Virus record (IMG/VR): IMGVR_UViG_3300020451_000280
Location: 1-47,402 of that record
Direction: 5' to 3' (one strand)
Origin: a virus
Length of the DNA stretch: 47,402 nucleotides
Position numbers and translations under genes: made by a program. A model generated the notes under the pieces. The model saw only the letters and a program-made list of their open reading frames with translations, had not been told where the DNA came from and made no database searches. Shown here piece by piece: positions 3,301-47,402 of this stretch; positions within the stretch are counted from its first letter, which is position 1, and each line of letters opens with the position of its first letter.

Positions 3301-6300
3301 CAGGTGAATACGCACGTATTATAGGTGCATCAGATGGTTCGAATGGAACTGACGATTATCCAGGAAAACTGATATTTTCTACAACTGCTGATGGTGGTTC
3401 AAGTCCAACAGAAAGACTTCGTATCAACAGCTCGGGTCAGGTGCTGATTGGTGCCACAAGCGGCGGCGGTTTATTTTCGGTTCATCAGGCTACTAGTTCG
3501 ACCTCTAATTACATAAACATTACCAATGACGCCACTGGTTCTTCTTCGTGGGCGAATGGAATGCTCTTGGGTAACAATGCGTCTGGCGATGCATTGGTCT
3601 GGCAAAATGAAAACCTAAATTTAATTTTTGGAACCAACAATAACGAGCGGATGCGTATAACCGCTACTGGAAGAATGGGATTGGGAACCCAAAATCCAAC
3701 ATCAACATTACATGTTAGTGGTACTGTAACTGCTACAACTTTCAGTGGTTCCGGTGCATCACTCACCAATATTCCTGCTGCTAATCTTACAGGAACACTC
3801 CCAGCGATTAGTGGTGCTAATCTCACTAATCTTGATGCTTCAGACCTCGCTTCAGGCACAGTTCCTGATGGTAGATTCCCTGCCACACTTCCTGCAGCTA
3901 GTGGCGCTAATTTAACAAATTTACCAGCTGCAAACATAACAGGAACTTTACCGGCAATCAGCGGTGCAAACTTAACGAACTTAAATGGTTCGAATATTTC
4001 TTCGGGAACAGTTGCTGCCGCGAGGGTTGGTGCTCTTCCCGCAAGTAAAATCACTACAGGCACATTTGATGCTGCTAGAATTCCTACTCTTAATCAGGAT
4101 ACAACAGGAACTGCTGCTGGGTTAACGGGAACTCCAAATATAACTGTTGGAACTGTAACAGCAGCATCTTTAGATATTTCTGGAAACGTTGATGTTGATG
4201 GGACACTAGAAGCAGATGCTATCACTATTGATGGAGCAACTCTCGCAGAAACTATTTCCGACACTGTAGGAGCAATGGTTTCCAGTAATACCGAAACTGG
4301 CATTACTGTTGCATATCAAGATAGTGATAATACTCTTGATTTTTCCATTGGAACATTAAATCAAGATACAACAGGAACTGCTGCACTTGCAGAGGGTCTG
4401 ACTGGTTCACCTACTATTGGCGTCAGCACAATTACAACTACTGGTAGTGTAGGAATAGGTTCCACACTACCAACAGGTAAACTTGACGTTTTAGGTCAAG
4501 TAAACATCAAATCTACATCGACCACAACAACATCCGGAATAGCAACATCATATACTGGATCTGTTTATCTTGATGGCAATAGTGATTATCTAACAGTTCC
4601 TGGTCCTGGAACATTAGCAGCAAGTTCTAACTGGACTTTAGAATGCTATTTCTATTGCACTGGTACTTCTAGTGGAACTTATAGAATTGTTGGTGCCAAT
4701 GAAAGTGTAAATGGATCTCAATATTCTTTTATTAGGATCAGGAATGGTCAGTATCAGTTTTTTACTGATAATGCATATAGTAGTACAGTTGGAACTGCTA
4801 CTTTTAATGCATGGCACCATATTGCATTTACAAAAACTGGAACAACTCTGCGTGGTTTTGTTGATGGGGTCAAAATTTATGAGGCAACAGACAATAATTC
4901 AGATAGTATTACAACATTTGTTGTTGGATGGGGTTATGGAAGTGAATATTTCCCAGGATATATTTCAAATGTAAGATTTGTAAATGGCACTTCTCTTTAC
5001 AAAGAGAACTTCACTCCCCAGACAGCAGAACTTACCAAAATTTATAATACTACTCACCTTTTAGCACAGTCTTCAAGTTCAGCAACTGCAGAAGCGACTG
5101 GCAAAACTGTGACTGCTGTTGGCACTGCTGCAGCATCAACAACAAATCCAAGTCTTGTAAAAGGATTTGATTTGTCTGGTTCTGTTGAACTTGATGGAAC
5201 TGGTGATTATCTTAGTGTAACTCATTCTGATTTAGCATTAGGTACGGGAGACTTTACACTTGAATTTTGGACGTACATACACACTCAAAACGCTGGATAT
5301 GATGCAGTATTTGAAAGTCGATCATCTACTAGCGCAACTGATGGATTTACTATTGGAAGATTTGGAACTTCTGGTCATGTTAATAAGTTTTCAATGTTTT
5401 TCGGTGGAAATTATAGATCAGAAGCAGATACAACAGTTGCAAACAATACATGGTCTCATGTAGCACTTGTTAGATTTAATGGTACAACTACATTATACTT
5501 AAATGGTATAGCAGGGTCCACAACTTATAGTGACTCAAATAATTATAGCAACACTTCTGTAAAGATTGGTGTTAATGCAAGTAACTCTAACGATTTTGAT
5601 GGAAATATCTCCAACTTACGTTTAGTTAAAGGAACCGCACTTTATACATCTAACTTCTCCCCAACATTTACTGAACTTACAAATTTACCAAATACAAAAC
5701 TTCTTGCGTTTCAATCATCAAGTTCTGCAACAGCTGAAGCAACTGGTAAAACTATTACTGCTGTTGGTAATGCTGCTGCATCAACAACAAGTCCCGGATT
5801 AATCTCACCAAATAGTCTCACTGGTTCTGTTGATTTTGATGGAACAGGTGATTACTTAACAGTCGCCGATAGTTCTTTAAATCCAGGAACAGGTGATTTT
5901 GCTGTAGAGGCATTTGTTAAATTTGCAAGCAATTCTGGAACTAGAAGAGCAGTGGTTATGGACACCACTGCATATGGTTCCAATAGTTTAAGTATTCAAC
6001 AATATAATAATGGATTTGAATTTTATTGTGGTGGTCAAAATCACTATACAAGTGGTTTTGACATGACAATATGGCATCACGCGCTGATCACAAGAAAGAG
6101 TAATACAATAAGATATATTGTCGATGGTAAAATAATAGGAACAGATACTAGTTCTAACAACATTTATGGTGAACCTACAAATACATTAACTATTGGTGGA
6201 TATAATAGTGTTTCCAATAGTGAGTATATGGGGGGTTATATTAGTAATGTAAGATTAGTTGTAGGTTCTGTTCCATCTGAGTATGAAACGACATCTACAT

Positions 6301-7608: not shown

Positions 7609-7629
7609 ATTGATATTAACTGTGTTTTG

Positions 7630-9318
7630 ATGGCTAAGAACGGTCGTTGTCCAGCAGGGCAGTATTACTGTTACACTGATGAAAAGTGTAAACCAATTCC
7701 AGCAGGATTCAAGGTAGTTGGTCGTGCTGGAATGCTCCGTAAGGAGAATGGTCATTCTGTAGATGATGAAGGCGAAACAAAGAATGGTAATGGAAACGGT
7801 AATGGTAATGGCGGTGGTAACGGTGGAGGATCCGTAAGTGAAGCTAACAAAAGTGGCGATAATTCTTTGCGTGACTGGTTTGGCAAGAGTCGCTCTAGTG
7901 ATGGCAAGCCTGGCTGGGTTCAGTTGGGTGGCAAGTACGCAGGAAAACCCTGTGCCAGACAACCAGGACAAACCACAAAACCAAAGTGTGGTTCAAGCAA
8001 AATGAAGCGTAACCTCAGTAAAAGCGAGGAAGATGCTGCATTTAGACGTAAGAATGCGAAAGATCCAAATCCAGATAGAAAAGGGAAGGCAATCAACGTG
8101 AAAACAGAAGAATTTACAACTCTACCATTACAGATTGAAATCCCAACAGAGATAAGAGATTTTAATCTTGGACTCATGTTCAGAGAAAGTCTGGATACAA
8201 ATAGTGGAATGTTATTCATCTTTGATGAAGTAGCACAACAATCATTCCACATGAGAGAGACAAAGATTCCTCTGGATATCGCATTTATCAGAGAAGATGG
8301 AATCATCGAAAGTATCAAGCAGTTAGAACCAAATGATGAAACTGCTGTAGAATCTGATGGAGATATTCTTTGTGCATTAGAAGTAAATCGTGGATGGTTT
8401 GCGGAGAATAATGTAGAAGTTGGCGACGAAATTGATATTACAGAGGGTGAGAAGGATGCTTGTTATCATAAGGTCAAGTCTCGTTATTCGGTATGGCCCT
8501 CTGCATACGCTTCAGGAGCATTAGTTAAGTGTCGCAAAGTTGGTGCGAAGAACTGGGGCAATAAAACTAAGAAGGAGGGATATGATTATTCAAACTGGAG
8601 ATCTGAGTTTAAACCAACAGAGTATGAAACAATTGATCTGATTACTCCCGATCCATTAGAACCAACTGAGGGTATTGGAAGTAAGATGCTTGGTGAGAAG
8701 TGCTGGCCTGGTTATAAGAAAAAGGGTATGAAGACGATGTTTGGAAAGAGATATCCAAACTGTGTCAAAGCAAATGAGGAGACAGACTGTTCTCATACTA
8801 AAAAAGGAAAGGATTGCCCAGTTCATGGTGCAGATGCTTGTCCTGATGATGTGGAAGAAGCAGTTCAGATCCCAAGAAAGACAGGCAACATTGTCGAAGT
8901 ATTCTTGACCTGGCGGGGCAAGATGTTGATGATTAAGATGTTCTTCCCATCTGTGAAGAAACCAAGTCGTTCTGAAGTTCAGGATCAACTTGATAAGGTA
9001 TATCCAGGTTCTAAGGTAAGTTCTTACAGGGTTTCTGACATCAAACCAGGAGAACAGTTTCTACAGACAGAAGGTGCTGCTTGGACAAAAAAAGAAGGTA
9101 AGAATAAAAGTGGAGGTCTGAATGAAAAGGGTAGAAAGTCGTATGAACGCGAAAACCCAGGAAGCGATCTTAAAGCACCTTCAAAAAAAGTTGGGAACCC
9201 TCGTAGAAAAAGTTTTTGTGCGAGAATGAGAGGTATGAAGAAAAAATTAACCTCTGCTAAAACTGCTAGAGATCCAGATAGCAGAATCAATAAGTCATTA
9301 AGAGCTTGGAATTGCTGA
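7630..9318 (+). CDS. Multidomain putative structural protein with DUF192 domain
   Basis: 562 residues from ATG 7630 (a TTG lies just upstream). Order seen: Cys-containing N-terminus (about 1-40); Gly/Asn linker (about 56-75); an 'SLRDWFGKS...GWVQLGGKYAGKPC' segment (about 80-125); a DUF192 domain (about 158-271) with GLMFRESL, GMLFIFD, HMRETKIPLDIAFI and LEVNRGWF; a 'VWPSAYASGALVKCRK' motif (about 286-302); a 'CWPGYKKKGMKTMFGKR-PNC' motif (about 358-377); an alpha/beta segment (about 411-479); and a basic C-terminal domain (about 484-562) with GGLNEKGRKSYERE, NPRRKSFCARM and RINKSLRAWNC, resembling DUF6321. The VWPSAYAS and GLNEKGR-type motifs recur in marine phage proteins annotated as structural. 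It sits between fibre and terminase under a late motif. Its function is unknown; a virion component is inferred. Confidence 0.75.
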   Translation: MAKNGRCPAGQYYCYTDEKCKPIPAGFKVVGRAGMLRKENGHSVDDEGETKNGNGNGNGNGGGNGGGSVSEANKSGDNSLRDWFGKSRSSDGKPGWVQLGGKYAGKPCARQPGQTTKPKCGSSKMKRNLSKSEEDAAFRRKNAKDPNPDRKGKAINVKTEEFTTLPLQIEIPTEIRDFNLGLMFRESLDTNSGMLFIFDEVAQQSFHMRETKIPLDIAFIREDGIIESIKQLEPNDETAVESDGDILCALEVNRGWFAENNVEVGDEIDITEGEKDACYHKVKSRYSVWPSAYASGALVKCRKVGAKNWGNKTKKEGYDYSNWRSEFKPTEYETIDLITPDPLEPTEGIGSKMLGEKCWPGYKKKGMKTMFGKRYPNCVKANEETDCSHTKKGKDCPVHGADACPDDVEEAVQIPRKTGNIVEVFLTWRGKMLMIKMFFPSVKKPSRSEVQDQLDKVYPGSKVSSYRVSDIKPGEQFLQTEGAAWTKKEGKNKSGGLNEKGRKSYERENPGSDLKAPSKKVGNPRRKSFCARMRGMKKKLTSAKTARDPDSRINKSLRAWNC

Positions 9319-9325
9319 TCGGTTT

Positions 9326-10972
9326 ATGTCTGATAATGTATATCTTGGTAATCCTAATCTAAAAAAAGCAAATACTCCTATTGAGTTTACTCAAGAACAA
9401 ATTCTTGAGTTTATGAAATGTAAGGAGGATCCCGTTTACTTTGCAAATAATTATATCAAGATTGTTTCTCTTGATGAAGGATTAACTCAGTTTCATCCAT
9501 ATGATTTTCAAGAAAAACTAATTAATAACTTTCATAATAATAGATTTAATATCTGCAAGATGCCACGACAGACTGGTAAATCAACCACTGTGGTATCTTA
9601 TCTTCTTCATTATGCTATCTTTAATGATAGTGTCAATATTGGTATTCTAGCAAACAAGGCAGCAACAGCAAGAGAACTACTTAATAGACTACAGACTGCT
9701 TACGAGAACCTCCCTAAGTGGATGCAGCAGGGTGTTCTTGTGTGGAATAGAGGATCTCTAGAACTTGATAACGGTTCTAAAATCTTAGCAGCATCGACCT
9801 CTGCTAGTGCTGTTCGAGGTATGTCTTTTAATATTCTATTCTTGGACGAATTTGCGTTCGTTCCAAATCATGTGGCAGATTCATTCTTTGCGTCTGTTTA
9901 TCCTACGATTACTTCTGGTAAAAAAACAAAAGTAATTATTGTATCTACTCCACACGGTATGAATCACTTCTATCGAATGTGGCATGATGCAGAAAGGAGC
10001 AAAAACGAATATGTTCCAACAGATGTTCACTGGTCCGAAGTTCCAGGTAGAGATTCTATATGGAAAGATCAGACAATTTCTAACACATCAGAACAACAAT
10101 TCAAAGTTGAGTTTGAATGCGAGTTTCTAGGATCCGTTGATACTCTGATTGCTCCAAGCAAGTTGAAGTCTATGGTATATGACAACCCACAGACTCGAAA
10201 TGCTGGACTTGATGTATATGCTTCAGTTGAAAAGGGGCATGATTATGTAATGACTGTTGACGTAGCAAGAGGAGTTGGTGAAGATTACTCTGCATTCATA
10301 GTTGTTGATATCACACAGTTCCCTCACAGATTAGTTGCCAAATATAGAAACAACGAAATCAAACCAATGTTGTTTCCCAATATCATCTATGAAGTAGCAA
10401 AGAACTATAATAGTGCATTCATTTTATGTGAAGTAAATGATATTGGTGATCAGGTAGCAAGTATCATACAGTATGACTTGGAATATCAGAATCTATTGAT
10501 GTGTTCTATGAGAGGTAGAGCTGGTCAGATTGTTGGACAGGGATTCTCTGGTAAGAAAACACAACTTGGCGTTAAGATGTCTAAGACTGTTAAAAAAGTT
10601 GGGGCACTTAATCTTAAAACTCTGATTGAAGAAAATAAACTTATATTCTGTGATTATGAAATTATTTCCGAGTTGACTACATTCATATCAAAGAAAAACT
10701 CATTTGAAGCAGAGGAAGGTTGTAATGATGACCTTGCTATGTGTTTGGTTATCTATGCTTGGTTGGTCCAGATGGATTACTTTAAGGAACTCACAGATCA
10801 AGATGTAAGAAAGAGACTTTATGAAGATCAAAAAGATCAGATAGAACAAGACATGGCACCTTTTGGATTTATGAATGATGGACTAGATGATACTAGTTTT
10901 GTTGATAATGAGGGTGATAGATGGTTTACTGATGAGTATGGTGATATGGGTCATATGTGGGAGTATAGGTAA
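9326..10972 (+). CDS. gp17: Terminase large subunit (DNA packaging ATPase/nuclease)
   Basis: The motor that pumps DNA through the portal into the prohead and cuts concatemers. The N-terminal ATPase carries Walker A RQTGKST (81-87) and Walker B LFLDEF with D174/E175. The C-terminal RNase-H-like nuclease shows DVARGVGEDYSAF (catalytic D312) and the late DLAMCL motif. It has 548 residues against about 610 in T4. It is followed at once by a small zinc-ribbon gene whose ATG overlaps its stop, then by gp18. A separate gp16 is not recognised nearby. Confidence 0.96.
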   Translation: MSDNVYLGNPNLKKANTPIEFTQEQILEFMKCKEDPVYFANNYIKIVSLDEGLTQFHPYDFQEKLINNFHNNRFNICKMPRQTGKSTTVVSYLLHYAIFNDSVNIGILANKAATARELLNRLQTAYENLPKWMQQGVLVWNRGSLELDNGSKILAASTSASAVRGMSFNILFLDEFAFVPNHVADSFFASVYPTITSGKKTKVIIVSTPHGMNHFYRMWHDAERSKNEYVPTDVHWSEVPGRDSIWKDQTISNTSEQQFKVEFECEFLGSVDTLIAPSKLKSMVYDNPQTRNAGLDVYASVEKGHDYVMTVDVARGVGEDYSAFIVVDITQFPHRLVAKYRNNEIKPMLFPNIIYEVAKNYNSAFILCEVNDIGDQVASIIQYDLEYQNLLMCSMRGRAGQIVGQGFSGKKTQLGVKMSKTVKKVGALNLKTLIEENKLIFCDYEIISELTTFISKKNSFEAEEGCNDDLAMCLVIYAWLVQMDYFKELTDQDVRKRLYEDQKDQIEQDMAPFGFMNDGLDDTSFVDNEGDRWFTDEYGDMGHMWEYR

Positions 10973-11193
10973 TGGATTTAGATGGGCAGATTAAGTTAGG
11001 ACATCTACTACTTCAAGATAGAACTTGTAAAAAATGCGGTGAAACAAAAAACTTAGTTGATTGTTTTTACAGGACAAGAAAGGATAGAGGAGCAGTAGCA
11101 TCATCATATTCTTATGAGTGTAAAGAATGCACTATCAAAAGAATTATGAATAGTAAAAAATCAAGCAATACTTGGGAATACCCGGATTGGTAG
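10972..11193 (+). CDS. Small zinc-ribbon protein
   Basis: 73 residues; ATG overlaps the gp17 stop (TAATG), indicating translational coupling. CKKC at about 19-22 and CKEC at about 50-53 form a Cys4 zinc ribbon like those at the N-terminus of phage endonuclease-VII/HNH-type proteins, but no HNH or other catalytic motif follows. It could bind DNA near the packaging motor, or be a remnant of a homing endonuclease. Function unknown. Confidence 0.7.
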   Translation: MDLDGQIKLGHLLLQDRTCKKCGETKNLVDCFYRTRKDRGAVASSYSYECKECTIKRIMNSKKSSNTWEYPDW

Positions 11194-11230
11194 TTCGCGT
11201 CGTGTTTCCCCTGCGAAAAGTGTCCTTTTG

Positions 11231-11237
11231 ATAAATA
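11231..11237 (+). promoter_or_regulatory. T4-type late promoter motif before gp18
   Basis: GATAAATA, 35 bases before the gp18 ATG. An SD-like CGGAG follows at about 11259. Confidence 0.65.
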
Positions 11238-11271
11238 TTTTCAGATAAACTGAGATCACGGAGAAACAAAC

Positions 11272-13500
11272 ATGGCGACTCCTCAATTATCTCCTGGAGT
11301 ACTGGTAAGGGAGGTTGACCTAACAGTAGGAAGAGCTGATAATGTTTTAGATAACATTGGTGGCATTGCGGCACCATTTGAAATTGGACCTGTAGAAGAG
11401 GTAACTAATATCCCTACAGAGCAAAGACTTCTGTCTGTATTCGGAGAACCAAAGGAAGCAGATAGTCACTATGAGTATTGGATGAGTGCATCGTCCTACC
11501 TCTCATATGGTGGTGTTCTTAAGGTAGTAAGAGCAGACGATGACGATCTGAAGAACTCGAATGCAGGTGTAGGAATTGCAAATACAACTACACTGAAAAT
11601 CAAGAACTACGACGACTACGGTAACAACTACGAGTCAGCAACTGACTTCTACTATGCTGCTAAGAATCCAGGTTCTTGGGCAGATGGACTGAAGGTTTGC
11701 TACATCGACGACCTTGCAGACCAGACACTTGGAGTTTCGACAAACAGCGCAGGTGCAAACCTTGGACTTGCTGGTTTAGGTGCTACAGTTGGAATGGGTG
11801 TTACTGCAGCAATTTCTGGAGTTCTTCCAAATGCATCGACTGGTGGCACATCCTCTTTCACTGGATATCTGAAAGCAATTGTCACCGGAGTAAGCACAGC
11901 AACATCTGGAACCGCAAGTTCTATTGATGTAAAGATTGTTTCGAGAGTAGACTCCGCAGGAACAGAAACAAGAATTGATTATGCAGAGGGAGATGGATTC
12001 TCATCCTTCGATACTGCTGATACATTATTCTTCACATCTAATGCAGGAAATGTAACTACAGGACAAGCAGTAGCAACCGCAGTTGACTGGTATGATCAGC
12101 AGACTTTAGGTCTTACAAATTCCACAGTATACTGGAAGACTCTTGCTCCAAAACCAGGAACAAGTGTTTATGCTGATGAAAGACAAGGACATGGCGATGA
12201 ACTTCACATCGCTGTTGTTGATGACAATGGAGATTTAACCGGAGTCAAAGGTAATATCCTTGAGAAGCACACTGGTCTTTCCAAAGCAACAGATGCTGTA
12301 TCTGCTGTTAATGCTCCACAAAAGATTTACTATAAAGATTATATTAGAGATTTATCTACCAACCTTTACGCTGGTAAAAATCCTCTCGCTGCTATTGATG
12401 CTCATCATGGAACTGCCCCAACGGCAACTGGATTTACTGCCTATACTGGAGTAAAATCAGCATCCTTTACCGCAGAAGGTGGCGCTGCAAACCAAGGTGG
12501 AGTTGCACAAGATAAGCAATTCCTTTCTATCGGTAATAAGACTTATACCTTCGCAGGTGGTAATGATTACCAGAGCACTGGTGGAGATGGTTACAAGGCA
12601 GACCTTGGAAAACTTATTTCCGCATACGGACTCTTTAGTAATAAGGATGAAACCGAAGTTGACTTCTTAATCATGGGACCTGGTTGTGATACTGAAGCAC
12701 AATCTCAAGCAAAAGCAAATTATCTTATCTCTCTCGCAGGAGCAAGAAAAGATTGTATGGCAGTTGTTGGTCCTCATAGAGCAAACGTTGTCAACATCAC
12801 AAACACTGAGACTCAGACAACCAATCTGATTAACTATTTCAGCCCATTACAATCCTCTTCCTACGCGGTATTTGATTCCGGTTATAAGTATACCTTTGAT
12901 CGTTTCAATAACAAGTTCCGTTATATTCCATGCAACCCAGATGTTGCTGGAATGATGGCAAGAACTGCTCTCAACTCCTATCCATGGTTCTCACCAGCAG
13001 GTCAGCAGAGAGGTGTTATTAATAACGCTGTTAAACTTGCTTACAACCCATCTAAGACTCAAAGAGATCGTCTCTATCCTAAGAGAATCAACTCCTTCAT
13101 CACTTCGCCTGGTGCTGGAACATTCCTCTTCGGTGATAAGACTGCACTTGCTTATCAGTCTGCTTTCGACAGAATCAACGTTCGCCGCTTGTTCCTCACA
13201 ATTGAGCAATCACTTGAGAGAGCAGCACAAGCACAACTCTTCGAACTCAACGACGAGTTAACGAGAGCAAACTTTAGAAACATTGTTGAACCATACCTCC
13301 GTGATGTTCAAGCAAAGAGAGGACTGATTGACTTCCTCGTTATCTGTGATGAGTCGAATAACACACCAGATGTTATTGATAATAATGAATTTAGAGCAGA
13401 CATCTTCCTGAAGCCTGCCAAGTCGATTAACTTCATTACACTTACTTTCGTCGCCACACGTACTGGAGCAAGTTTCCAGGAAGTCGCTGGTAGAGTTTGA
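11272..13500 (+). CDS. gp18: Contractile tail sheath protein
   Basis: 742 residues (about 659 in T4). The N-terminus (SPGVLVREVDLT, then IGGIAAPFEIGPVEEV) and the C-terminal region (RRLFLTIEQSLERAAQAQLFELND, then FVATRTGASFQEV) are those of T4-type sheath proteins. The C-terminal domain forms the inner sheath around the gp19 tube; the middle is a variable beta-rich surface insertion. It lies 33 bases before gp19, with no separate late motif between, so the two are probably co-transcribed. Confidence 0.96.
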   Translation: MATPQLSPGVLVREVDLTVGRADNVLDNIGGIAAPFEIGPVEEVTNIPTEQRLLSVFGEPKEADSHYEYWMSASSYLSYGGVLKVVRADDDDLKNSNAGVGIANTTTLKIKNYDDYGNNYESATDFYYAAKNPGSWADGLKVCYIDDLADQTLGVSTNSAGANLGLAGLGATVGMGVTAAISGVLPNASTGGTSSFTGYLKAIVTGVSTATSGTASSIDVKIVSRVDSAGTETRIDYAEGDGFSSFDTADTLFFTSNAGNVTTGQAVATAVDWYDQQTLGLTNSTVYWKTLAPKPGTSVYADERQGHGDELHIAVVDDNGDLTGVKGNILEKHTGLSKATDAVSAVNAPQKIYYKDYIRDLSTNLYAGKNPLAAIDAHHGTAPTATGFTAYTGVKSASFTAEGGAANQGGVAQDKQFLSIGNKTYTFAGGNDYQSTGGDGYKADLGKLISAYGLFSNKDETEVDFLIMGPGCDTEAQSQAKANYLISLAGARKDCMAVVGPHRANVVNITNTETQTTNLINYFSPLQSSSYAVFDSGYKYTFDRFNNKFRYIPCNPDVAGMMARTALNSYPWFSPAGQQRGVINNAVKLAYNPSKTQRDRLYPKRINSFITSPGAGTFLFGDKTALAYQSAFDRINVRRLFLTIEQSLERAAQAQLFELNDELTRANFRNIVEPYLRDVQAKRGLIDFLVICDESNNTPDVIDNNEFRADIFLKPAKSINFITLTFVATRTGASFQEVAGRV

Positions 13501-16445: not shown

Positions 16446-17099
16446 ATGAAACTTATCAGAGAAGAGATCGAATCTGTCAAATTTCTTGTAGAGAAAACAA
16501 AGTCTGGCAAGAAATCCCTGTATATTGAGGGAGTATTCCTTCAGGGAAACATCAAGAACCGCAATGGTCGTATGTATCCTATGGATACTCTTCGTCGTGA
16601 AGTTTCTCGTTATAACGAATCCAATGTTCAGGCAGGTAGAGCACTTGGTGAACTTGGACATCCTGATGGTCCTACCGTGAATCTCGATAGAGTATCACAT
16701 AAGATTGTCTCATTAAGAGAGAGTGGAGATAACTTTATTGGTAAGGCAAAAATCCTTGGAACACCGATGGGTAAGATTGCCGCAAATCTCGTAGAAGAAG
16801 GTGTCAAACTTGGCGTTTCTTCTCGTGGTATTGGATCGCTTAAAACAACAAAAGAGGGATGCAATATTGTTGGCGACGACTTCATGTTAGCAACTGCTGC
16901 TGATATTGTTGCTGATCCTTCTGCACCTGATGCATTTGTTGAGGGTATTATGGAAGGTAAAGAATGGGTCTGGGAAGGTGGTTTACTTCGCGAAAAGTAT
17001 GCCCAGCAGACCAAAAATAAGATTAACACACTCGTCGGTCAGAGAGCGTTAGAGGAGCACAAACTCCAGTTATGGAGTGATTTCCTATCTAATCTTTAA
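16446..17099 (+). CDS. gp21: Prohead maturation protease
   Basis: 217 residues. It is the serine protease that degrades the scaffold and trims capsid proteins at (I/L)xE sites. The herpesvirus-assemblin-like fold is marked by catalytic His in GELGHPD (H72) and Ser in LGVSSRGIGSL (S125 or S126). The N-terminus (KSLYIEGVFLQGNIKNRNGRMYP) is typical of the family. It starts only 5 bases after the preceding gene and is followed by a late promoter for its substrate gp22. Confidence 0.95.
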   Translation: MKLIREEIESVKFLVEKTKSGKKSLYIEGVFLQGNIKNRNGRMYPMDTLRREVSRYNESNVQAGRALGELGHPDGPTVNLDRVSHKIVSLRESGDNFIGKAKILGTPMGKIAANLVEEGVKLGVSSRGIGSLKTTKEGCNIVGDDFMLATAADIVADPSAPDAFVEGIMEGKEWVWEGGLLREKYAQQTKNKINTLVGQRALEEHKLQLWSDFLSNL

Positions 17100-17147: not shown

Positions 17148-18293
17148 ATGTCTCGTGGAGATTTACAAGAAATGGAAGTAAAGACACAGCAATCCAAAAC
17201 TGCTGTTAATTCTGGGGCTGCTGCTGCAGATCCTATGCCTAAAATGGCAGATCCTGGCACTCAACTGGCTAACGTTGAGGATCTCGGTGGTCCTACTCCC
17301 GAGAACTACAAATCCGATGATGATTCGGCAAAACTGAAAGAGCCAGGTGCTACCCTCAAGCAAGTCAAGGATATTATCACCAAAGGTGCTAAACCTGCTG
17401 ACCCAATGCCTAAGGGTATGAAGGAAGAGGAAGAAGTAGCAGACGAAGAAGTAGTAGCAGAAGCAGAGGAAACCACTGATGAGGTAGTCGCTGAAGAAGA
17501 GACTACTGAAGACGAAGTTGTTTCTGAAGAAGAAGTAACTGAAGAAGAAGTCGTTGCTGAGTATGACATCGAAGAAGATGTCAATGCTCTCCTCGCAGGC
17601 GAAGAACTCTCCGAGGAATTCCAAGCAAAAGCACGCACCATCTTCGAAGCAGCAATCAATTCTAAGGTTGCTCAAGTCAAAGAAGAACTGGAAACTAAGT
17701 TTGCAGAAAAGTTTGCAGAAGAAATTGTTTCTGCAAAAGAATCACTCGCTGAGCGTGTTGATTCTTACCTTGAGTATGTCGCTGACGAGTGGATGACTGA
17801 AAATCAACTCGCAGTCGAGCATGGACTCAAGACTGAAATGACCGAATCGTTCCTCTCCGGAATGAAGAGTCTTTTTGAAGAACATTATGTAACTATCCCT
17901 GAAGAGAAGTATGATGTAACTACCGCAATGGTAGCAAAATTAGATGAGATGGAAACAAAACTCAACGAGCAAATCGAAAAGAATATCTCCCTCAATTCCA
18001 GACTCAATGAGTCGGTTGCTGAAGGAATCTTAGATCAAGTCTCTGATGGTCTTGCACAGACACAGAAAGAGAAGCTCGCCTCACTTTCCGAAAGTGTAGA
18101 GTTTGAAAGTGAAGCACAATATCGTGAAAAGTTAGAAACACTGAAGGAGTCATACTTCTCTCAGAAGACCGTTTCTACTCCAGCTAAGACCGAGACCCTC
18201 TCTGAAGGTGTAGAGAGCAACCATCAATCCTATACTGGTTCGATGGAATCCTACATGAGAGCATTGGGTTCTACACTTAGCAAAAACTCCTGA
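17148..18293 (+). CDS. gp22: Prohead scaffolding core protein
   Basis: 381 residues (269 in T4). It forms the assembly core around which gp23 polymerises and is later degraded by gp21. The N-terminal part (about 1-85) is Pro/Lys/Asp-rich; about 90-145 is an extremely acidic stretch of Glu/Val/Thr repeats; the rest is a long helical, coiled-coil-like region. The acidic repeat and its extra length are features of marine relatives. It lies between gp21 and gp23 as in T4. Codon use is richer in C-ending codons, like gp23. Confidence 0.9.
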   Translation: MSRGDLQEMEVKTQQSKTAVNSGAAAADPMPKMADPGTQLANVEDLGGPTPENYKSDDDSAKLKEPGATLKQVKDIITKGAKPADPMPKGMKEEEEVADEEVVAEAEETTDEVVAEEETTEDEVVSEEEVTEEEVVAEYDIEEDVNALLAGEELSEEFQAKARTIFEAAINSKVAQVKEELETKFAEKFAEEIVSAKESLAERVDSYLEYVADEWMTENQLAVEHGLKTEMTESFLSGMKSLFEEHYVTIPEEKYDVTTAMVAKLDEMETKLNEQIEKNISLNSRLNESVAEGILDQVSDGLAQTQKEKLASLSESVEFESEAQYREKLETLKESYFSQKTVSTPAKTETLSEGVESNHQSYTGSMESYMRALGSTLSKNS

Positions 18294-18341: not shown

Positions 18342-19751
18342 ATGTTCCATTCCGAACAGTTGCAGGAAAAGTGGGCACCTCTCCTCAACCATGAGGGTCT
18401 TGATAAAATCGAGAACTCCCATAAGAGAGCAGTAACCGCAGTCCTGCTGGAAAACCAAGAAAAATTCCTCCGTGAGCAAAGTGCCTTCGAAAGCGGCACC
18501 ACAATGCTTACTGAGCAACCTAACATGAACACCCAAACCGGCTCTGCTGCTGGTTTCTCTGGTGGTGCAACCGCATCAGGTCCTGTTGCCGGTTTCGATC
18601 CAGTTCTGATTTCCCTGATCAGACGCTCTATGCCTAACTTGGTCGCATATGACCTCGCAGGTGTTCAGCCAATGTCTGGTCCTACTGGACTCATCTTTGC
18701 GATGCGTTCACGTCGTGACAGTCAGTCTGGCACTGAAACCTTCTTCGATGAAGTAGATACCGCATTCTCCGGTCAGGACAAAGGTCTTGACCTCACCAAC
18801 GGCATGACCAATGCTGCAGTTGGTATGGGTACTACCGGACACAACCCTGGCACTAACCCTGGTGCTCTGAATCCTTCCTCCAACGCCACACAGAAAGCAT
18901 ATTCTGTTGGTCAGGGTATGCGTACAGACGACGCAGAAGCACTTGACGGTACTGGAAGCAATGCTTTCAACCAGATGGCATTCTCGATCGAGAAAGTCAC
19001 CGTTACTGCGAAGTCTAGAGCACTGAAGGCTGAGTACTCCTTAGAACTCGCACAAGACCTTAAGGCAATCCACGGTCTGAACGCTGAAGCGGAACTCGCA
19101 AACATTCTCTCTACTGAGATTCTTGCTGAGATCAACCGCGAAGTCATCAGAACCATCTACAAGACTGCTGAGTCTGGTGCTCAAGTCAACACCGCAACCG
19201 CTGGTGAGTTCGACCTCGATGTCGATTCCAACGGACGCTGGAGTGTTGAGAAGTTCAAGGGTCTTCTGTTCCAAATCGAGCGTGATGCTAACGCAATCGC
19301 ACAAAGAACTCGTAGAGGAAAGGGCAACATCATCATGTGTTCCGCAGACGTTGCTTCTGCACTGACCATGGCTGGTGTTCTCGATTACACCCCTGCACTC
19401 AACGCTAACCTTAACGTTGATGACACCGGTAACACCTTCGCTGGTGTTCTCCAAGGTAAGTATCGTGTATACATCGATCCTTATGCTGCAAACAGTGCTG
19501 CTAACCAGTACTACGTTGTTGGTTATAAGGGAACTTCTCCTTATGACGCTGGTCTGTTCTACTGCCCATATGTACCCCTCCAGATGGTACGTGCTGTCGG
19601 CGAGAACTCCTTCCAGCCCAAAATCGGATTTAAGACCCGCTACGGCATGGTTGCTAATCCATTCGCTGAGGGTCTTACCCAAGGCAGCGGCGCTCTCACA
19701 GTTAACGGAAACCGTTACTACAGAAGAGTCACTGTTAAGAACCTTATGTGA
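18342..19751 (+). CDS. gp23: Major capsid protein precursor
   Basis: 469 residues (521 in T4); HK97-fold shell protein. A helical propeptide (1-58) ends in MLTE, matching the gp21 site (I/L)xE, so the mature chain probably starts at Q59. Core signatures: FDPVLISLIRRSMPNLVAYDLAGVQPMSGPTGLIFAMRS, then VTVTAKSRALKAEYSLELAQDLKAIHGLNAEAEL, and the C-terminal YYRRVTVKN. No late motif is seen in its leader, so it is probably read through from gp22. C-ending codons dominate, fitting high expression. A strong terminator follows. Confidence 0.97.
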   Translation: MFHSEQLQEKWAPLLNHEGLDKIENSHKRAVTAVLLENQEKFLREQSAFESGTTMLTEQPNMNTQTGSAAGFSGGATASGPVAGFDPVLISLIRRSMPNLVAYDLAGVQPMSGPTGLIFAMRSRRDSQSGTETFFDEVDTAFSGQDKGLDLTNGMTNAAVGMGTTGHNPGTNPGALNPSSNATQKAYSVGQGMRTDDAEALDGTGSNAFNQMAFSIEKVTVTAKSRALKAEYSLELAQDLKAIHGLNAEAELANILSTEILAEINREVIRTIYKTAESGAQVNTATAGEFDLDVDSNGRWSVEKFKGLLFQIERDANAIAQRTRRGKGNIIMCSADVASALTMAGVLDYTPALNANLNVDDTGNTFAGVLQGKYRVYIDPYAANSAANQYYVVGYKGTSPYDAGLFYCPYVPLQMVRAVGENSFQPKIGFKTRYGMVANPFAEGLTQGSGALTVNGNRYYRRVTVKNLM

Positions 19752-47016: not shown

Positions 47017-47402
47017 ATGAGAAACTTCTTTCAATTCTTAAGTGAGGCTAAACAGTCTGCTGCTTCTTTGGAAGCTAAGCAGAAGGGACTTGTGTATGAT
47101 AGTAAGCGTAATGCATGGATTAATCCTAAGACTAGAGAATTGGTAGCAAGAACTGAGAAAGGAAAACTACACTTCATTACTAAGAGAGGTTCTGGAGAAC
47201 AGGACGAACCAACCGGCAAGAAGAAAGCAGCAAAACCAGAAATAAAAGCAAAGACTACAAAAGTAGCACCACCGAAAGCAGCGCCAAAACCAGCAGAGAA
47301 AGAACCAGATCAAGAGCAGAAAGTTAAGACTGAAACTCTGACTGTTGCTTTTGGTCGTTTCAATCCACCGACAGTTGGTCATGGTAAGTTACTTGCTGCA
47401 GC
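47017..47402 (+). CDS. Nucleotidyltransferase-fold protein with T4-like capsid-targeting start (3' end outside window)
   Basis: 128 residues are visible. The first ten (MRNFFQFLSE, then A) resemble the T4 internal-protein targeting sequence MKTYQEFIAE, which is cut by gp21 after (I/L)xE. A small domain (about 20-60) with AWINPKTRELVARTEKGKLHFITKR follows, then a Lys/Pro/Ala-rich linker (about 68-108). Next starts a cytidylyltransferase-like fold: TLTVAFGRFNPPTVGHGKLL, carrying the (H/T)xGH nucleotide-binding signature. The substrate cannot be told from the part seen. Packaging in the head is inferred. Confidence 0.75.
   Translation, partial: MRNFFQFLSEAKQSAASLEAKQKGLVYDSKRNAWINPKTRELVARTEKGKLHFITKRGSGEQDEPTGKKKAAKPEIKAKTTKVAPPKAAPKPAEKEPDQEQKVKTETLTVAFGRFNPPTVGHGKLLAA

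Follow-up and report, generated by a model that had tools for sequence, protein, structure and literature searches.

The window, a 47,402-nucleotide stretch of IMG/VR virus record IMGVR_UViG_3300020451_000280, is part of the genome of a T4-like cyanophage; it encodes homologs of gp17 to gp23, including gp21 and the gp22 core. At its end, an ORF on the + strand (47017-47400) starts with ATG, encodes 128 amino acids (MRNFFQFLSEAKQSAASLEAKQ...TLTVAFGRFNPPTVGHGKLLAA), and runs off the contig. The following features of the window, with the capsid-targeting sequence abbreviated as CTS, are considered in this study.

16446..17099, + strand: prohead protease gp21, which presumably does the processing (PF03420, E=6.4e-36)
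17148..18293, + strand: gp22 scaffold (core), the presumed docking partner of the CTS (PF25623, E=4e-81; phrog_237)
18342..19751, + strand: gp23 major capsid protein (LTE site at residue 58, aligned with the T4 cleavage site)
47017..47402, + strand: 5' portion of a nucleotidyltransferase gene of the T4-GC190 / phrog_395 family that stops at the contig end (tblastn, phrog_395)
47017..47046, + strand: CTS-like decamer MRNFFQFLSE (no variation at F7 or E10 among 75 homologs; the same pattern finds T4 IPII/IPIII)
47046/47047, + strand: predicted site of gp21 cleavage, after E10 of the CTS-like decamer and before A11
47056..47178, + strand: mini-domain of about 40 residues, residues 14-54 (HMM matches to S-CREM2 gp12 and gp14; phrog_3561)
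47179..47328, + strand: hypervariable Lys/Ala/Pro/Glu-rich linker, residues ~55-104 (column entropy)
47335..47402, + strand: start of the nucleotidyltransferase domain, GRFNPPTVGH (conserved motif; domain 103-287 in the model of homolog L004)

The nucleotidyltransferase at the contig end

A tblastn search with the truncated ORF matched 271 phage records, nearly all of them cyanophages, and most of the matches listed were annotated as cyti(ti)dyltransferase; the label T4-GC190 was also attached to homologs. The ORF matched phrog_395 (E=6.6e-7, residues 99-127) and contained the first catalytic motif of this family, GRFNPPTxGH, in agreement with the first-pass annotation, which had noted a nucleotidyltransferase motif downstream of the decamer (TVGH, residues 119-122). 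The Pfam search of the 128-residue fragment gave no match, and the assignment therefore rests on PHROGs and the full-length homologs. The latter keep both the GRFNPPTxGH-type motif and a SASKMR-type motif, in which S, S, and R are invariant.

A structure model of one homolog (L004), for which the alignment was built from IMG/VR homologs only, had a pLDDT of 68.5, with a confident nucleotidyltransferase domain and a decamer and linker that were not confident. Residues 103-287 of the model matched the folds of both PPAT (Z 14.2) and NMNAT/NadM (Z 13), and the fold search did not tell the two apart. The likeness to PPAT (CoaD) and NadM (Z ~14 and 13) lies in the nucleotidyltransferase fold and the TxGH and SxSxxxR-type motifs, whereas sequence identity is 10-16% and GC190 has an extra N-terminal tag and a C-terminal domain. 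The NCBIfam NMNAT, TIGR00125, and Pfam PF01467 matches were all below cut-off. Additionally, the Arg of GRFNP recalls archaeal NMNAT, and MJ0541 was among the weak profile matches.

The decamer and its presumed processing machinery

The N-termini of T4 IPII and IPIII, read from NC_000866, are both MKTYQEFIAE/A (a slash marks the cleavage position here and below). Across these 11 positions, the window protein is identical at four (M1, F7, E10, and A11) and conservatively changed at three (K2/R, Y4/F, and I8/L). In T4 IPIII, the first ten residues are enough for packaging; positions 4 and 7 of the T4 CTS serve targeting, positions 8 and 10 serve processing, and T4 gp21 cleaves after (L/I)xE (PMC9026906). 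The window decamer fits the T4 CTS at all four of these mapped positions and also at A11, and the earlier observation of a T4-like decamer on this nucleotidyltransferase was thereby confirmed. As also proposed there, gp21 is encoded in the window (Peptidase_S77, E=6e-36, 16446-17099), and a check of the other genes for the decamer showed ORF 47017-47400 to be its sole strict carrier within the 47-kb window. An alignment of the window gp21 with T4 gp21 revealed common ALGELxHP and GVSSRGxGS blocks. The gp23 cleavage sites also align, reading FLTE/AE in T4 (E65), MLTE/Q in the window, LLTE/A in S-CREM2, and ILTE/T in S-SM1. These conserved blocks and the LTE site shared by T4 and the window indicate that the specificity of gp21 appears to have been kept.

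In an alignment of 75 distinct homologs, column entropy averaged 0.50 bits for residues 1-11, 0.87 bits for residues 12-60, 2.64 bits for residues 61-104, and 0.58 bits for residues 105-128, so that the first 11 residues are conserved to about the level of the active site. F7 and E10 are invariant in these proteins and position 9 is free. The codons at positions 4, 7, 8, and 10 vary synonymously among homologs, with both synonymous codons used for F7 and E10, which indicates that selection acts on the decamer peptide. The same variation rules out a DNA-level cause of the conserved 5' end.

The mini-domain behind the decamer has the consensus AxxLGLxxDGHGGWxDxxGxxVAxTxxGxL. Its HMM matched two proteins of cyanophage S-CREM2, gp12 (iE 1e-11) and gp14 (iE 3e-10), the latter with one clear and one weak copy, and phrog_3561, the family of gp12, matched residues 3-59 of a GC190 homolog. 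The cluster-C orthologs from S-CREM2 and S-CRM01 keep the decamer and lack both the mini-domain and the linker.

Tagged proteins in phage genomes and virions

Phage genomes were scanned at the DNA level with the pattern M[KRNS]x[FY]xxF[LIVMF]xE, which gave 22 matches in 13 genomes, while the reversed pattern gave none. At least two of these matches, located in P-SSM2 and G001, resemble chance, since the frames that they open are all very short. In T4, the pattern finds exactly IPII, IPIII, and gp61.1. The cyanophage proteins found include GC190, a SAM lyase (PF23780, 2e-19) and a kinase of S-CREM2, and a GNAT acetyltransferase of S-CRM01. A stricter pattern, MKx[FY]xEF[I/L/F/M]xEA, matched at least 120 IMG/VR stretches, again with no match to its reverse. 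From 80 IMG/VR loci, 81 tagged proteins of at least 50 amino acids were grouped by sequence into 43 clusters, of which 34 had a single member, which puts the overall number of clusters at 43 or more. Most of the tagged IMG/VR proteins lack the mini-domain. Among 17 long contigs bearing tagged ORFs, gp21 was present on 12, the other five being possibly incomplete. A comparison of N-terminal with internal occurrences of the motif in all six-frame ORFs of L001-L080 gave one N-terminal match against ten others, a ratio that says little for a set that mixes spurious frames and short neighbourhoods. From the homolog alignment and the pattern scans, the decamer is conserved as a peptide and portable among otherwise unrelated proteins. 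The tagged proteins outside S-CREM2 include the following.

L192 962-1504, strand not given: small tagged ADP-ribosyltransferase-like protein, marine phage (predicted fold)
L136 1211-1858, - strand: tagged ADP-ribosyltransferase-like protein (predicted fold)
L153 1085-1591, strand not given: tagged ADP-ribosyltransferase-like protein (predicted fold)
L128 3736-4149, strand not given: tagged ADP-ribosyltransferase-like protein (predicted fold)
L187 11564-12109, - strand: second SAM lyase, start MKSYKEFLQE/A (PF23780, 1e-11)
L110 1501-1893, strand not given: S-CRM01 g185, GNAT acetyltransferase, start MKTFDEFLTE (decamer pattern)
T4 18966-19130 (L245 467-631), - strand: T4 gene 61.1 (decamer pattern)

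For one tagged group, AF2 predicted an ADP-ribosyltransferase fold immediately after the decamer (pLDDT 65). The Foldseek matches listed for this group were ADP-ribosyltransferases, with VIA-align Z up to 8.7. Further loci with such tagged proteins are L166, L184, L197, and L120. The L187 SAM lyase, located on another contig, suggests a repeated origin or spread of packaged SAM degradation. S-CRM01 g185 is a candidate injected acetyltransferase. T4 gp61.1 (54 amino acids, function not known), which starts MKTFKEFIKE/D, is a candidate T4 internal protein.

Published virion proteomes bear directly on the proposal of the first-pass annotation that the enzyme is packed into the head. T4-GC190, described as a putative citidylyltransferase and cyanophage core protein, was detected in S-SM1 virions (Sullivan et al. 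2010, PMC3037559), and orthologs were found in virions of S-SCSM1 (ORF91, 'NMNAT'; PMC9602691) and S-CREM2 (ORF154, gp154; PMC10665884). NMNAT-like proteins were also reported in virions of S-CBWM1 and S-SZBM1 (PMC10665884). The GC190-family orthologs in the S-SM1, S-CREM2, and S-SCSM1 proteomes, together with the NMNAT-like relative in S-SZBM1, back head packing, and the reading of the decamer as a T4-like CTS is supported. In the S-CREM2 proteome, 52 of 219 proteins were detected (PMC10665884). The genes of this phage with the strict motif (aromatic residue at position 4, F7) are gp6 (SAM lyase), gp14 (kinase), gp136, and gp154 (GC190), and all four are in the virion list (p = 0.003, in a test that spans four to six genes and with motif limits set with T4 and GC190 in view). 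With a relaxed motif, five of six tagged coding sequences are virion proteins, the additions being gp13 (detected) and gp175 (undetected). The S-CREM2 genes other than gp154 that bear the decamer or a related element and are represented in the virion are as follows.

L083 (OR473000) 3837-5081, - strand: gp6, SAM lyase (decamer; virion)
L083 (OR473000) 7704-10313, - strand: gp12, annotated as Cas9 (decamer element; virion)
L083 (OR473000) 10310-10546, - strand: gp13, small ORF (relaxed decamer; virion)
L083 (OR473000) 10579-12846, - strand: gp14, APH-like kinase (decamer; virion)
L086 1301-2014, strand not given: gp136 (decamer; virion)

The protein gp12, annotated as Cas9-like and detected in virions, carries FASFMAE/A at residues 19-25; no alternative ATG, GTG, or TTG start that would put this decamer at the N-terminus was found in S-CREM2, the codon there being CTG. 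The element is kept in most orthologs from S-CRM01, S-B68, S-N03, and ACG-2014f. Since gp12 has no Pfam match and belongs to phrog_3561, a family of unknown function, its Cas9 label is doubtful.

The association is not uniform. The decamers of the kinase and SAM lyase orthologs in S-N03 are degenerate, and ORF30 of S-SCSM1 is tagged and carries no virion-protein label. The sole nucleotidyltransferase-like ORF found in S-CBWM1, a distant and different phage, lacks the decamer, though an NMNAT-like virion protein was reported. S-PM2, by contrast, speaks for the CTS: its nucleotidyltransferase domain is embedded in a larger, untagged ORF (L247 730-2040), and GC190 went undetected in virions of this phage. 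This non-detection weighs little, because several genuine head and tail proteins also escaped the same proteome.

Proposed loading and delivery of the enzyme

These results make it quite likely that a T4-type CTS loads the nucleotidyltransferase into the prohead, that gp21 trims it, and that the enzyme enters the host with the DNA. The lines of evidence for the CTS are the position-specific conservation of the decamer, its presence on unrelated proteins, its coincidence with the S-CREM2 virion list, and the retention of gp21 and of the gp23 LTE site. During assembly of the prohead core, the precursor would dock on the scaffold, presumably the gp22 core, through its aromatic residues F4 and F7. 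gp21 would then cleave after L-S-E10 and leave an enzyme that begins at A11 free among the packaged DNA. At infection, the enzyme would pass with the DNA into the cyanobacterium, where nucleotidyl transfer could precede any phage gene expression. The most likely reaction would be adenylyl transfer to a nicotinate/nicotinamide- or pantetheine-type phosphate.

The virion detections might instead reflect carry-over, in which an enzyme that acts only in the infected cell, in nucleotide or NAD metabolism, is abundant and sticks to virion preparations and the decamer is a conserved, non-targeting N-terminal helix. Authors of two proteomes raised the choice between cargo and carry-over themselves (one of them in PMC9602691), the S-CREM2 detection of GC190 comprises three peptides with 11% coverage (PMC10665884), and AF2 models residues 4-10 as a helix, at low confidence. 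We nevertheless regard carry-over as rather improbable, given that the protein was detected independently in several phages, that unrelated virion proteins bear the same decamer, that the reversed patterns yield no matches, and that T4 IPII and IPIII share the decamer, which in IPIII is a proven targeting signal (PMC9026906). If packaging is real, it could also be driven by the mini-domain (residues 14-54) or another part of the protein, with the decamer merely a gp21 site or an assembly aid. This would fit a module common to the unrelated virion proteins gp12 and gp14 of S-CREM2, together with the phrog_3561 match. However, the S-CRM01 ortholog and S-CREM2 gp154 keep the decamer without the mini-domain, and gp154 is in the virion; these cluster-C orthologs lower the weight of the mini-domain as the lone packaging signal. 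Its absence from most tagged IMG/VR proteins and the sufficiency of ten residues in T4 (PMC9026906) point the same way, so that packaging by the mini-domain is very improbable. The mini-domain may help docking or unfolding.

Packaging by the decamer would also be compatible with a head-assembly factor or a structural filler like IPIII rather than an effector acting in the host, as T4 IPIII affects head assembly (PMC9026906) and GC190 belonged to the core genes shared by every cyanophage in the 2010 comparison (PMC3037559). Such a role is unlikely, since both catalytic motifs are strongly conserved, as expected of an enzyme. We therefore favor the loading of an active, CTS-tagged nucleotidyltransferase for delivery to the host.

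The closest known system is that of the T4 internal proteins IPI-IPIII, which share a decamer with aromatic residues at positions 4 and 7, I or L at position 8, E10, and A11. As here, gp21 and core genes occur in the same genome and the decamer precedes diverse proteins. In contrast to the small and poorly conserved T-even internal proteins, the cargo in the window is a core enzyme that is conserved and includes a mini-domain and a long linker, and cleavage and ejection are proven only in T4. The window ORF belongs to the same family as S-SCSM1 ORF91 and S-CREM2 gp154 (T4-GC190 / phrog_395), whose members occur in virions, the window copy being truncated. A further parallel is T4 Alt, an enzyme that is packaged in the head, processed by gp21, and delivered to the host. 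Marine phages carry small tagged proteins of the ADP-ribosyltransferase fold (L192, L136, and L153) that resemble a minimal T4 Alt. Alt loses a 7-residue propeptide, and its enzyme class differs from that of GC190.

The virion presence of the GC190 family is already known, and the mechanism itself is that of T4. In the open literature searched, the CTS was described in T4 reviews only and not in cyanophages. Within this literature, the CTS explanation and the spread of the tag over enzymes of cyanophages and marine T4-like phages appear to be new. It seems somewhat probable that in marine T4-like phages the portable CTS, sometimes with the mini-domain, is a general loading code for pre-made enzymes delivered with the DNA, and that sequence can therefore disclose which proteins uncultured marine phages inject. 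The arsenal under such a code would include nucleotidyltransferases, SAM lyases, kinases, acetyltransferases, and ADP-ribosyltransferases. It would offer a mechanism for the recurring virion enzymes (cytidylyltransferase/NMNAT, SAM lyase, and kinase), set against the contaminant question in cyanophage papers. If true, a ten-residue rule would predict, among the many unknown genes in marine T4-like phages, those whose products are delivered in the first minute of infection, and the decamer would offer a native tag with which to load proteins into cyanophage heads.

Elsewhere in the window, the large ORF 7627-9318 carries DUF192 and DUF6321. A DUF6321-like stretch lies behind the CTS decamer in a short tagged protein (L162), and the middle of the ORF resembles a tagged 106-aa protein of S-SCSM1 (L102). 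On the basis of these two likenesses, the product of 7627-9318 may likewise belong to the head core.
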